Shown: positions 32,104 through 36,066 of the stretch, in pieces
How the letters are laid out: each line of letters opens with the position of its first letter
Numbering within the stretch: the stretch's first letter is position 1
Assembly (NCBI GenBank): GCA_019308995.1
Contig: JAFDHD010000024.1
Span: 1-36,855, forward strand
From: Deltaproteobacteria bacterium
Lineage (GTDB): Bacteria; Desulfobacterota; Desulfarculia; Adiutricales; JAFDHD01
DNA: 36,855 nt
Reading direction: 5' to 3'
Program-made: the position numbers and the translations under genes
The notes under the pieces: generated by a model
What the model was told of the DNA's origin: nothing
What the model saw: only the letters and a program-made list of their open reading frames with translations
The model's database searches: none

Positions 32104-32829
32104 ATGAAACGAGTATTATACTCCGGGCTCATTCTGGCCCTTCTGGCAGTGGGAGGCTGCACCGGGTATACTTACATGCCCGTGCCTTTTAAGGCGCCCG
32201 AGGCCTATCTCAATCATCAGCGCCTGGATGGGGCGGTGATTGCCATACGAAGTTACTCCAGCAGCATTGAGGCCAAAGAGGCCTTTGGTTTCGACATCAT
32301 AGGCGCCGGCCTTCTTCCCCTTCAGATCATTATGGACAACAAAGGTCCTCATTCCTACGAGCTTGTCCCGGCGCAGACCCTTCTTAAAGACGCTGATAAT
32401 AATTTATGGAACATCTTGCCAGCCGAAAGAGCTTACGACCGGGTGAACAAGAAGGACGAGCTGGCGCGTCTGGGCAAAACTGGCGCCAAGTCAGCCGCGT
32501 TAACCGGCGCGGCCGGGGCTATTCTGGGTTTTGCCTTGGGGGTGATAACCGACTCTGACATCAGCCGGACAACGCTTAAAGGGGCCACGGCCGGTGCGGC
32601 TCTGGGCGCTGTGGGCGGAGGTTCAGCCGGTTACCATGACCGTCAGGCCAGGAACCGCATTGCCCGGGACCTGCGGGAAAAAAGCCTGAAAAGCGGGACT
32701 TTCCGTGCCAAGGAGTTTGCGCACGGATTCCTTTTCTTCCCGGCTGAGGTCAAGAATCCCAAGCTCCTGCGCCTGAAACTTAAGGAAAAAAACACGGGCC
32801 GCATTCATATTCTGGAGTTTAGGCTTTAA
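32104..32829 (+). CDS. envelope lipoprotein with glycine-zipper-like segment
   Basis: This 241-residue protein has a lipoprotein signal ending AVGGC (Cys at about 19), then a beta-rich part (RLDGAVIAIRSYSSSIEAKE, PHSYELVPAQTLLKDADNN), a hydrophobic Gly/Ala segment (about 140-180: AALTGAAGAILGFALGV, then GATAGAALGAVGGGSAG) like the glycine zippers of envelope proteins, and a C-terminal strand-rich end (GFLFFPAEVKNPKLLRLKLK). It should be anchored in the envelope. Function unknown. GTGAGGAAGTAAC provides the ribosome site. It converges on greA with an 18-base gap. Confidence 0.8.
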   Translation: MKRVLYSGLILALLAVGGCTGYTYMPVPFKAPEAYLNHQRLDGAVIAIRSYSSSIEAKEAFGFDIIGAGLLPLQIIMDNKGPHSYELVPAQTLLKDADNNLWNILPAERAYDRVNKKDELARLGKTGAKSAALTGAAGAILGFALGVITDSDISRTTLKGATAGAALGAVGGGSAGYHDRQARNRIARDLREKSLKSGTFRAKEFAHGFLFFPAEVKNPKLLRLKLKEKNTGRIHILEFRL

Positions 32830-32847: not shown

Positions 32848-33312
32848 CTACCTGATCTCCACGATCTCCATCTCCTGGACGCCTCCAGGAGCCTTGACTC
32901 GAACCTCGTCCCCCTCCTCCTTGCCGATCAAGGCCCGACCGAGAGGAGAGGTTACGGAAATGCGGCCCTTTTCAGGATCAGACTCATAAGGCCCCACCAG
33001 CATGTAGCTTTTTTGTTCCCCTGTCTCACTATCTTCTAGTGTAATCCTGGCGCCGAAAACGGCCCGGTCATGAACCTGGCTGGTGTCAATAATATCGCAC
33101 TCCCCGATCTGAACCTGAAGCTCGGCGATCCGGCCTTCGATAAAGGACTGGCGATCCTTGGCAGCATGATACTCGGCGTTTTCCATGATGTCACCGTGAG
33201 CCCGGGCGGCTTTTATGGCTTTCACGTTGGCCGGCCGTTCGATCTTGATCATCCTATCCAGTTCCTTTTTGAGATTCTCATACCCTGGGCGTGTAATAGG
33301 CGTTCTTTGCAT
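32848..33312 (-). CDS. greA: transcription elongation factor GreA
   Basis: This 154-residue protein rescues backtracked RNA polymerase by stimulating cleavage of the nascent RNA. The N-terminal coiled coil has ITRPGYENLKKELD, and the tip reads GDIMENAEYHAAKDRQ, which keeps the catalytic acidic pair (Asp and Glu) although the usual Leu-Ser is Ile-Met. The C-terminal FKBP-like domain has FGARITLED and SPLGRALIGKEEGDEV. The frame extends 6 codons further, but the ATG at 33312 has GGGGAG at the right distance. Confidence 0.94.
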   Translation of the reverse strand: MQRTPITRPGYENLKKELDRMIKIERPANVKAIKAARAHGDIMENAEYHAAKDRQSFIEGRIAELQVQIGECDIIDTSQVHDRAVFGARITLEDSETGEQKSYMLVGPYESDPEKGRISVTSPLGRALIGKEEGDEVRVKAPGGVQEMEIVEIR

Positions 33313-33319
33313 CGTTTTA

Positions 33320-33325
33320 CTCCCC
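33320..33325 (-). promoter_or_regulatory. ribosome binding site fixing the greA start
   Basis: GGGGAG on the minus strand, 7 bases before ATG 33312, supports the shorter GreA. Confidence 0.7.
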
Positions 33326-33596
33326 ACCAACTCAAAACCGGCGGCCAGTCCAGGCTACCGGCATCAGACTTGCGGGTATTTTTGACTATCCTATTTTTTC
33401 TGGCTTGCTAAAAATCAGCCGGACATGACAAATAATAGGTCAAATGGCTCCCTTTTCTCTTACCAGAGGCACCATGGCTCTGTCAAGATGCCCGGGCCTG
33501 AAACTGGACTATTAGAGCAATTGCTGAGTTGCCCCCGGTTTCTTTGGACACGAAATTGCATTAACGTGAGAAGAAGTTGTTCAAGGAGGTCGGGTC

Positions 33597-33729: not shown

Positions 33730-34617
33730 CTAATTGCCACTACCTGAACCTGAACCACCTCCACCGCCATGCCCTCCTGAACCTGAACCGCCTGATCCTG
33801 CATCACTGGAGCCACTTGAATCCGTGCCGCCGGAGTGGTCTGAACCACCACCTGTTTTTGAATCCTGGTCTTCAGTATTTTGTCCACCTTTGAAAGAATG
33901 GGTGTATTCATTGGCTACCTGGGCAGGGGAAACTGTTCCAGATTTAGTCATGAAGGTATTCCTCATAGTCACCATTTCCCGTACTGTTGACTGGTTCTCG
34001 AGGGCCAGACTGATGAGGTCGGCTGTGTCACGGGAACTAAGACCAAGGCGTGCCATGTCGCGAGTCGTCTTAAGGCTCTCTTCACTAAGCTCCAAGGCCT
34101 GTGCATGATCCATGGTGTGGATCCTCTCTTGTAACTGGTTCATGATCCCTTTCATATCCTGCTCTTCCACGCCCGCGACCATGCACGCGGCAATGGTATT
34201 CGCTAACATACGGATCTGGGACCGTTCCTGGGTTATCATTCTAGCCTGGTCGTATGCCGAAGCAAACCTGGAACGAACCTTTTCCATGGCCTGTAAAATA
34301 GTCTCCGCCTTTACTTGCTTGGCAATACCCTCATTTACCTTACTCGTGATCGGCTCCACGGGCAATTCCTTCTCACTGGTCTCCATCACAATCTGATGGG
34401 CTCGCAAAATATGCTCTTCCCTGAATCTGGTTTGAAGCATTAGGCGAGTAATTTCCATGGCGTCATCGCTATCGATTCCCATCCTAATCATGGATCTCAC
34501 ACTGGCCCTGACACTTTTCGTGGCGCTTTGAGGAAGCCCATCGTCAACCTCGTCGGCCAAGGCGATAGAACAACCGAAAAAAATCACGCACGCGATAATA
34601 ATAAATATTTTTTTCAT
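33730..34617 (-). CDS. secreted helical protein with Gly/Ser-rich C-terminal tail
   Basis: This 295-residue protein has a signal peptide (MKKIFIIIACVIFFGCSIALA, cleavage before DEV). A mainly helical body follows with repeated R-M-G/L-G and D-A-M/D-T-A motifs (SMIRMGIDSDDAMEITRLML, then DMARLGLSSRDTADLISLAL), suggesting an internal repeat. The last 50 residues are almost only Gly and Ser with a few Asp and His. No known family is recognised. It is the last gene of the ECF sigma operon, 51 bases after the lipoprotein gene, so it is probably the envelope output or partner of that system. The start at 34617 (GAGGTGACGGC before it) was chosen over one 9 codons upstream because the signal peptide begins there. 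Confidence 0.75.
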   Translation of the reverse strand: MKKIFIIIACVIFFGCSIALADEVDDGLPQSATKSVRASVRSMIRMGIDSDDAMEITRLMLQTRFREEHILRAHQIVMETSEKELPVEPITSKVNEGIAKQVKAETILQAMEKVRSRFASAYDQARMITQERSQIRMLANTIAACMVAGVEEQDMKGIMNQLQERIHTMDHAQALELSEESLKTTRDMARLGLSSRDTADLISLALENQSTVREMVTMRNTFMTKSGTVSPAQVANEYTHSFKGGQNTEDQDSKTGGGSDHSGGTDSSGSSDAGSGGSGSGGHGGGGGSGSGSGN

Positions 34618-34668
34618 GCCGTCACCTCTCACGGGTCTTATCAATATAACGAGCAGCCTCGATGAAGG

Positions 34669-34998
34669 TTACAATTCAGGGACGTATACACAGTTTTTCG
34701 ATCCGAAATCATCAAACTGTTTCAATCTACAGGAAGGGATAAAATGTACCCCATCAATCATATAAAAATAAGTAAAGGCACGATTTGCTGGCAAGGTCAC
34801 TGCCCAGGTTGAGCCGGCTTTTTTTTCAGCAAGGTGAAGTTTGAATCCGTCCAGGGAGGAGGCAAAATAGACTATTACAGCATCAGATTTGTTCAGGTAC
34901 AGGTAAAGTGAGTTTGTCCCGACCCGATAATGATGACTGCCCCCGCAGCCGGCTAGAGTAGTAGTTAATACGATTGCTGGAAGCAGGTACCACTTCAT
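34669..34998 (-). CDS. small lipoprotein with AMPK-CBM-like beta domain
   Basis: This 109-residue protein has a lipobox TLAGC (Cys at about 18) and then a single E-set-like beta domain: AVIVYFASSLDGFKLH, GSTWAVTLPANRAFTYFYMI and the end FDDFGSKNCVYVPEL. The last part mirrors the end of the anti-sigma-like protein encoded just before it (KDDFGGENSILRIGV), and both match the way AMPK glycogen-binding domains finish. The conserved binding Trp of the F-x-x-W turn is not present here. Two bases separate the genes. Probably a membrane-anchored ligand-binding partner; inferred only. Confidence 0.75.
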   Translation of the reverse strand: MKWYLLPAIVLTTTLAGCGGSHHYRVGTNSLYLYLNKSDAVIVYFASSLDGFKLHLAEKKAGSTWAVTLPANRAFTYFYMIDGVHFIPSCRLKQFDDFGSKNCVYVPEL

Positions 34999-35000
34999 GT

Positions 35001-35549
35001 TTAGACCCCAATCCGAAGGATCGAATTCTCACCTCCAAAATCATCCTTTTCTAGAGTCAGAATGGTTGGATCGGCGACCCTCAGCCGGTCCTCGAAAATA
35101 TAACTAAACTGATGCTCTCCGTGTGGCAATTCAAGAGTGATTTCCCAGTATCCGGTCGTACCTACTCTTTTCAAGGGGACCTTTTGCCACTGCGTGAAAC
35201 TCCCGGCGATTTCCACTTTTTTTACGTCCGGACGATGGATCACAAACCTATGCGGGGTAGTAGTTATTTTAGCTGGCATCAGCAGGAAGAGCAGGATAGC
35301 CGCAGTCACTGCAGCAGCCGGGACCATATATCCAACAGGACGCAGCCATGAGAACGGCTTCCTTTTTTCTGAAGGTAGCACTGCTTCCGGAACACGATCC
35401 GTAACGTCGGACCGGAGTCTCTGCTCTAATTGCAGGAGCGCGATGGATTTGTCCTTAAAGGACTTATCCTGATGAACCATTTCAATATATTTGATTTTTT
35501 CTTCCATGTTCAGTTCGTTATCGATGAACATACTGATGAGATGATCCAT
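35001..35549 (-). CDS. anti-sigma-like membrane protein with periplasmic AMPK glycogen-binding-like domain
   Basis: This 182-residue protein has a helical N-terminus typical of anti-sigma factors (ISMFIDNELNMEEKIKYIEMV, residues 5-25), a single transmembrane helix at about 72-91, and a C-terminal CBM48/AMPK-CBM-like domain at 100-182 (VEIAGSFTQWQKVPL, GYWEITLELPHGEHQF, DDFGGEN). Trp121 and Asn175 match glycogen-contact residues of AMPK-beta; the second contact Trp is absent. It lacks the HxxxCxxC zinc motif. The ATG shares a base with the stop of the sigma-factor gene (TAATG). Likely role: bind and hold the sigma factor, and release it when the periplasmic domain senses a sugar polymer or an envelope change. 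Confidence 0.82.
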   Translation of the reverse strand: MDHLISMFIDNELNMEEKIKYIEMVHQDKSFKDKSIALLQLEQRLRSDVTDRVPEAVLPSEKRKPFSWLRPVGYMVPAAAVTAAILLFLLMPAKITTTPHRFVIHRPDVKKVEIAGSFTQWQKVPLKRVGTTGYWEITLELPHGEHQFSYIFEDRLRVADPTILTLEKDDFGGENSILRIGV

Positions 35550-36025
35550 TACTTTTCTCCTACTGTAAGGATTTTTTTAAGCGCAAGGCGGGCCCTATGG
35601 ACCTTAACCTTCACGTTTGCCTCGCTGATTCCCACCACAGAAGCGATTTCCCGATACGAAAAGTCGCTGCTTATAACCAGAGTTAGGATCTCCCGTTCAC
35701 CAGGTTCGAGTTCATTCATGGCAGTCAATACCTCCTGGTATTCGCTCCGCACAAGGATAGTGTGTTCGCCATCATTGCTCCTATCACCCGGATTATCATC
35801 AAATTTTACGCTGCGCTTCGATTCGCGGTGATGATCGAAAAAGGCGTTCCGGGCAATAGTATATAACAAGGTTTTTTGGGGTTCCTTGTCACCATAGTGC
35901 TCTATATGCCGTTTAAAACTTTCCTGCATGAGGTCACCAGCCAGGTAATAGTCACCGGTCATCCGCATCAGGTATCCGAACAGCTGATCTTTGTGCTGTA
36001 TGTAGAACTCCTTATATTTTTTCAT
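35549..36025 (-). CDS. ECF-type RNA polymerase sigma factor
   Basis: This 158-residue protein has the two ECF domains. Sigma-2 covers about 8-75 with LFGYLMRMTGDYYLAGDLMQ and the LLYTIARNAFFDHHR segment; sigma-4 covers about 105-155 with LEPGEREILTLVI, FSYREIASVVGIS and ANVKVKVHRARLALKK. The acidic linker between them (FDDNPGDRSNDGEH) is normal. It is the first gene of a four-gene minus-strand operon whose second gene is its presumed anti-sigma. No Shine-Dalgarno is seen before the ATG. A candidate ECF-type promoter lies directly upstream, so it may regulate itself. Confidence 0.93.
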   Translation of the reverse strand: MKKYKEFYIQHKDQLFGYLMRMTGDYYLAGDLMQESFKRHIEHYGDKEPQKTLLYTIARNAFFDHHRESKRSVKFDDNPGDRSNDGEHTILVRSEYQEVLTAMNELEPGEREILTLVISSDFSYREIASVVGISEANVKVKVHRARLALKKILTVGEK

Positions 36026-36038
36026 ACTGTCTATGGTT

Positions 36039-36066
36039 ATAACGCGAACCAGGTTTAATGGTTACA
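36039..36066 (-). promoter_or_regulatory. candidate ECF-type autoregulated promoter
   Basis: On the minus strand TGTAAC (36066-36061), a 16-base spacer and CGTTAT (36044-36039) fit the AAC / CGT layout of ECF sigma promoters. It is 13 bases from the sigma-factor ATG, giving a very short leader. Confidence 0.35.

Follow-up and report, generated by a model that had tools for sequence, protein, structure and literature searches.

The window analysed here, a stretch of 36,855 nucleotides, carries on its minus strand a four-gene operon that encodes, in this order, an ECF sigma factor, an anti-sigma factor, a lipoprotein and a secreted helical protein. The gene set, its order, its domains and two predicted ECF-type promoters are conserved across the Desulfobacterota, and the promoters indicate that the operon is self-regulated. 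We put at roughly two in three the probability that the operon as a whole works as a self-regulating ECF sigma/anti-sigma signalling circuit, including the signal cycle proposed below, in which the periplasmic CBM48-type domain of the anti-sigma factor and the lipoprotein of like fold would be the most likely signal receivers. All four open reading frames were found where an initial annotation of this DNA had placed them, one of them with a revised start. That annotation named neither the promoters nor self-regulation nor secreted proteins as the probable output.

The sigma gene (35549-36025, minus strand) encodes 158 amino acids, and its assignment to the ECF factors is well founded. The protein scores over the Pfam cut-offs with Sigma70_r2 (E=1.1e-10) and with Sigma70_r4_2 (E=6e-15) and over the NCBIfam cut-off with sigma70-ECF, it consists of sigma2 and sigma4 domains only, and its length falls near the ~160-200 amino acids expected of this group. 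Its own genome (assembly of 3.78 Mb in 228 contigs, 96.5% complete) has seven Sigma70_r2 matches, among which it is the sole ECF-type sigma factor found. Since the others are by size and type RpoD-like, with one FliA/WhiG and one RpoH, the window sigma factor is the only candidate reader of the two promoters.

The anti-sigma gene (35001-35549, minus strand) shares one nucleotide with the sigma gene (TAATG) and is separated from the lipoprotein gene by 2 nt. Overlapping or near-zero spacing, described initially for the whole operon, therefore holds for these three genes but not for the fourth, whose ATG follows the lipoprotein gene after a gap of 51 nt that holds a promoter of its own. The anti-sigma protein has an N-terminal class-I-like domain (residues ~1-60), a single hydrophobic segment that forms the predicted transmembrane helix (~72-91) and a periplasmic CBM48/AMPK1_CBM domain (~100-182). 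The C-terminal AMPK-CBM/CBM48 domain that had been proposed was recovered over the Pfam cut-offs with both AMPK1_CBM (E=3.3e-10) and CBM_48 (E=1.1e-4), and a PDB profile search with 14 relatives led to AMPK beta1 (1z0n, E=1e-9).

The lipoprotein (34669-34998, minus strand) has the lipobox LAGC, a divergent CBM48 fold and two conserved cysteines, C90 and C103, both invariant in 58 relatives. It has no Pfam CBM match of its own; its profile aligns with the anti-sigma CBM (E=1.8e-15), and the best Foldseek matches of its AlphaFold model (pLDDT 87) are AMPK-CBM/CBM48 structures, in agreement with the related domain claimed for it at the outset. The last gene (33730-34617, minus strand) encodes the secreted, all-helical protein with a Gly/Ser-rich tail, which we call the EGxAK family. 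The gene, the tail and the helices had been read correctly from the start, but not the initiation codon: ATG at 34617 is a better start than TTG at 34644, being immediately preceded by an ECF promoter and a Shine-Dalgarno sequence (TGTAAC...CGTTATATTGATAAGACCCGTGAGAGGTGACGGCATG, which spans promoter, Shine-Dalgarno and start). The AlphaFold model of this protein (pLDDT 94.5) is a 13-helix array for which no PDB match was found at E<=0.001, and the protein belongs to no Pfam family. Solved structures considered as relatives were rejected, the sequence matches being only Gly/Ser-linker artefacts.

A scan of GTDB genomes identified 171 relatives of the window-type (type-1) anti-sigma factor. The best 80 of these are nearly all labelled Desulfobacterota, and 68 of their 80 loci hold the full four-gene set in the order of the window, so that the operon is not a chance arrangement and the neighbourhood survey, one of the checks that the initial annotation had put forward, bore it out. 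When 395 genomes of the phylum were searched with the Pfam model AMPK1_CBM and 40 loci were then fetched, three architectures emerged. Type 1, that of the window, consists of sigma factor, anti-sigma factor lacking a zinc motif, lipoprotein and helical protein. Type 2, seen in a congener (genome G001, locus L012), runs CBM lipoprotein, sigma factor, anti-sigma factor and helical protein, and type 3 has a sigma factor, a helical protein devoid of the Gly/Ser tail and an anti-sigma factor in which a true zf-HC2 domain, a transmembrane segment and a CBM are joined. Homologues of the helical protein occur in all three types and share the core motif K..EG.AK. A profile of the helical core found 43 loci in 42 of the 395 genomes, all 42 of which also have AMPK1_CBM; 40 of the 43 have an AMPK1_CBM match no more than 2.5 kb away, two others adjoin a CBM anti-sigma gene on inspection, and the third exception sits on a separate contig of a fragmented assembly. 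The helical and CBM anti-sigma families are therefore almost obligately linked.

The distribution of the module is uneven. One genus contains two versions, type 1 in the genome of the window (G000) and type 2 in G001 (L012), with anti-sigma factors that are 27% identical, and elsewhere in that order and class the sampled genomes do not have the module, which suggests transfer or loss. A locus labelled Flavobacteriaceae (L138) has a type-1 sigma and anti-sigma pair and neither the lipoprotein nor the helical gene, as a result of either transfer or mis-binning, and no relative of the window anti-sigma factor was found among viral contigs. Next to the operon the window also encodes a GreA/GreB-type elongation factor (32848-33330, minus strand) and a glycine-zipper lipoprotein-like protein (32104-32829, plus strand), which as far as seen are not conserved parts of the module.

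The case for self-regulation comes from the regions upstream of the sigma genes. The pattern AAC-N16-CGT is present in 57 of 81 such regions, compared with 0-5 at other spacings and a mean of 4.8 (maximum 9) in shuffled sequence. Bases outside the search pattern are conserved as well (TGT before, TT after and T after CGT), giving TGTAACcTTT-N-CGTTAT. In the window the predicted promoter of the sigma operon is TGTAACCATTAAACCTGGTTCGCGTTA (36040-36066, minus strand), and a second predicted promoter, TGTAACCTTCATCGAGGCTGCTCGTTA (34647-34673, minus strand), precedes the helical gene. A matrix built from the sigma-gene sites alone recovered this same promoter before 48 helical genes in relatives, versus 4 matches in 739 kb of shuffled sequence. 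The exact pattern TGTAACc-TT...CGTTAT occurs twice in the 3.78 Mb of the genome, both times in this operon. Allowing one mismatch added 19 sites in the same genome, while a reversed-pattern control gave 36, and these sites are therefore not called a regulon. Judged by sequence, both predicted promoters are of the AAC-N16-CGT type expected of an autoregulated ECF sigma factor. In the promoter of the helical gene, the -35 element shares bases with the stop codon of the lipoprotein gene (TTGTAACC; 34673-34669), an overlap kept in 39 of 50 relatives. No promoter of the window type was found ahead of the type-2 sigma genes. In four type-3 loci (L049, L050, L053 and L059) the module contains an AGTAACc-N16-CGTA site, which in L049 lies some tens of bases ahead of the gene for the zinc-type anti-sigma factor.

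Beyond the module itself, 22 of 36 promoter targets near the operon in relatives are small secreted glycine-rich proteins, compared with 28 of 2393 (~1%) at random positions. Since the helical protein and these targets are secreted, the output of the circuit would be a secreted, cell-surface or matrix-type protein. The glycine-rich target proteins that were scanned belong to no Pfam or NCBIfam family. Gly-rich repeat proteins with motifs such as GPGDGTGN..GPKDGTGYGPG and QDRLKDGSC adjoin the module behind this same ECF promoter in loci L089, L104, L106, L114, L115, L119, L128, L131, L140, L153, L157 and others, and genes for di-haem cytochrome c peroxidases (MauG-type) lie behind a weaker match (17-20 bits) to that promoter in L139, L150 and L156. 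In the 228 contigs of the genome that carries the window, the promoter search found no Gly-rich target, and only the module itself matched.

The anti-sigma identity of the CBM membrane protein deserves scrutiny because it could be merely an envelope protein that is co-transcribed with the sigma gene. In favour of this alternative, the window N-terminus has no significant match to an anti-sigma model in Pfam or NCBIfam. The zinc motif HxxxCxxC is absent from the window protein and all 65 type-1 relatives. A profile comparison of the window-type with the zinc-type anti-sigma domain was not significant, so that the identification has to come from other evidence. That evidence is threefold: the anti-sigma gene overlaps or abuts the sigma gene in nearly all loci; type-3 sister systems of equal architecture have HxxxCxxC in 9 of 9 anti-sigma factors, with zf-HC2 over its cut-off and a CBM on one protein; and zf-HC2 is matched by 12 of 65 close relatives (best E=1.5e-4), while a few relatives match NCBIfam anti-sigma models. 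The sister zf-HC2 systems thus support reading the type-1 protein as a probable anti-sigma factor, and we regard the alternative as highly improbable. Lack of the motif is also common in this class, as about half of the membrane-bound class I anti-sigma factors have no Hx3Cx2C (PMC7406223), and the window protein resembles them further in lying adjacent to its cognate ECF factor.

The ligand of the CBM48-type domain is harder to assign. In AMPK beta1 the contacts with cyclodextrin include W100, K126, W133, L146, T148 and N150 (PMC9788615). Type-1 anti-sigma factors keep W100 and N150 in 65 of 65 and have Phe at the L146 position in 63 of 65, but none of the 65 retains K126 or W133, leaving the AMPK set of glucan contacts incomplete. 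With W100 and N150 kept and K126 and W133 gone, carbohydrate binding is possible, but the case for an alpha-glucan bound in the manner of AMPK is not established, and it is just as likely that the ligand has changed or that the domain binds another protein. The ECF/anti-sigma signalling module with a periplasmic CBM48 that had first been proposed stands in its domains and gene coupling but not in the alpha-glucan binding attached to it. Direct binding of an alpha-glucan or another exopolysaccharide, with release of the sigma factor as in an RsgI-like glycan sensor, would be in keeping with a CBM that scores over the Pfam cut-offs, with the invariant and aromatic ligand positions, with the W133 kept in 7 of 9 zinc-type (type-3) anti-sigma factors and with the precedent of RsgI (PMC4711584). 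We nevertheless consider it rather unlikely in view of the missing type-1 contacts, and the promoter targets found near modules include no glycan enzyme or other gene of glycan metabolism.

A somewhat more favourable view, though still short of even odds, can be taken of the CBM48 as a protein-interaction E-set, in which the CBMs of the anti-sigma factor and the lipoprotein would form a periplasmic pair that is disturbed either by the secreted helical protein or by a defect of the envelope. Such a scheme would follow a logic like that of RseA/RseB or RcsF. Two CBM-fold proteins of common descent are co-encoded in nearly all type-1 loci, the lipoprotein is conserved, with its two cysteines, even though the W100 position is Tyr or Phe in 58 of 58, and none of the 44 lipoproteins with a readable lipobox has Asp at +2, which is compatible with outer-membrane sorting. 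On the other hand, every type-1 anti-sigma factor has kept the ligand residues W100 and N150, for which a domain devoted purely to interaction would have no need, and type-3 systems showed no recognisable lipoprotein partner.

The self-regulating circuit, our preferred reading, would run as follows. In the resting state the anti-sigma factor would hold the sigma factor at the membrane through its N-terminal domain. The periplasmic CBM48, probably together with the like-fold lipoprotein, would read an envelope signal, upon which the sigma factor could be freed through a conformational change or through site-1/site-2 proteolysis (the genome has two M50-family matches). Free sigma factor would then transcribe its own operon and the gene for the secreted helical protein with its Gly/Ser tail, and in many relatives also those for small secreted glycine-rich proteins. 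The circuit would most likely control an extracellular layer, with the CBM reporting the state of that layer through a polysaccharide or protein ligand. A more elaborate version, in which a pair of CBM48-fold proteins, the inner-membrane anti-sigma factor and the lipoprotein, monitors an extracellular layer of Gly-rich protein or polysaccharide, the dedicated sole ECF factor tunes production of the layer, and the EGxAK helical protein, secreted and autoinduced, is a component of it or a ligand for feedback, would amount to an undescribed class of envelope signalling in the Desulfobacterota; in this complete form we find it quite doubtful.

The initial annotation knew of no characterised system of this composition, and for the four-gene module this holds in the papers searched, but carbohydrate modules in sigma/anti-sigma signalling are themselves known. 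SigI/RsgI of Clostridium thermocellum combines an autoregulated sigma factor, a co-transcribed single-pass anti-sigma factor with an extracytoplasmic carbohydrate module and a secreted-protein regulon (PMC4711584). The window system shares these features, the autoregulation and the secreted-protein regulon by prediction. It differs in that SigI is not an ECF factor, that the RsgI N-terminal domain and its CBM3, PA14 or GH10 modules are unrelated to a zf-HC2-type domain and CBM48, that SigI/RsgI has neither a CBM-fold lipoprotein nor a helical Gly/Ser protein and that the promoters differ. By Pfam and NCBIfam the window sigma factor is of the ECF and not of the SigI type, and its anti-sigma factor gave no RsgI_N match at E<=1. 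ECF52, such as SCO4117 of Streptomyces coelicolor, likewise unites an ECF sigma factor, an anti-sigma part (a zinc finger), a transmembrane segment and an extracytoplasmic carbohydrate domain in one signalling unit, but as a single fused polypeptide with a smart00776 domain, reported to be exclusive to Actinobacteria and devoid of a lipoprotein or helical partner (PMC5826349), whereas the window has separate genes and none of the 65 relatives a zinc motif. The window system would thus operate in a similar way to SigI/RsgI and ECF52 but is a member of neither group. The AMPK beta glycogen-binding domain is similar in fold and, through W100 and N150, in part of its ligand site; unlike it, the window domain is periplasmic and sits on an anti-sigma factor that has lost K126 and W133, and the lipoprotein copy has lost W100. 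The text of the class I anti-sigma survey (PMC7406223) mentions no CBM48/AMPK domain, and our literature search found no paper that links AMPK1_CBM/CBM48, isoamylase or glycogen-binding domains with an anti-sigma factor; the search did not cover the ECF group classification, in which a numbered group may exist. The four-gene set and its output are apparently undescribed in the literature searched.

Taken as a group, these systems represent a widespread and, as far as found, unnamed ECF/anti-sigma group that has a sensor-type domain of CBM48 fold, a promoter that could be predicted and a very small predicted regulon. They bring with them two unannotated families, that of the EGxAK helical protein and that of the secreted Gly-rich proteins. 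With so small a regulon and a single ECF factor found in the genome, the circuit lends itself to direct testing, and cultured carriers exist (Desulfopila aestuarii and Desulfoprunum benzoelyticum). The circuit could reveal what relatives of the sulfate reducers build on their surface.
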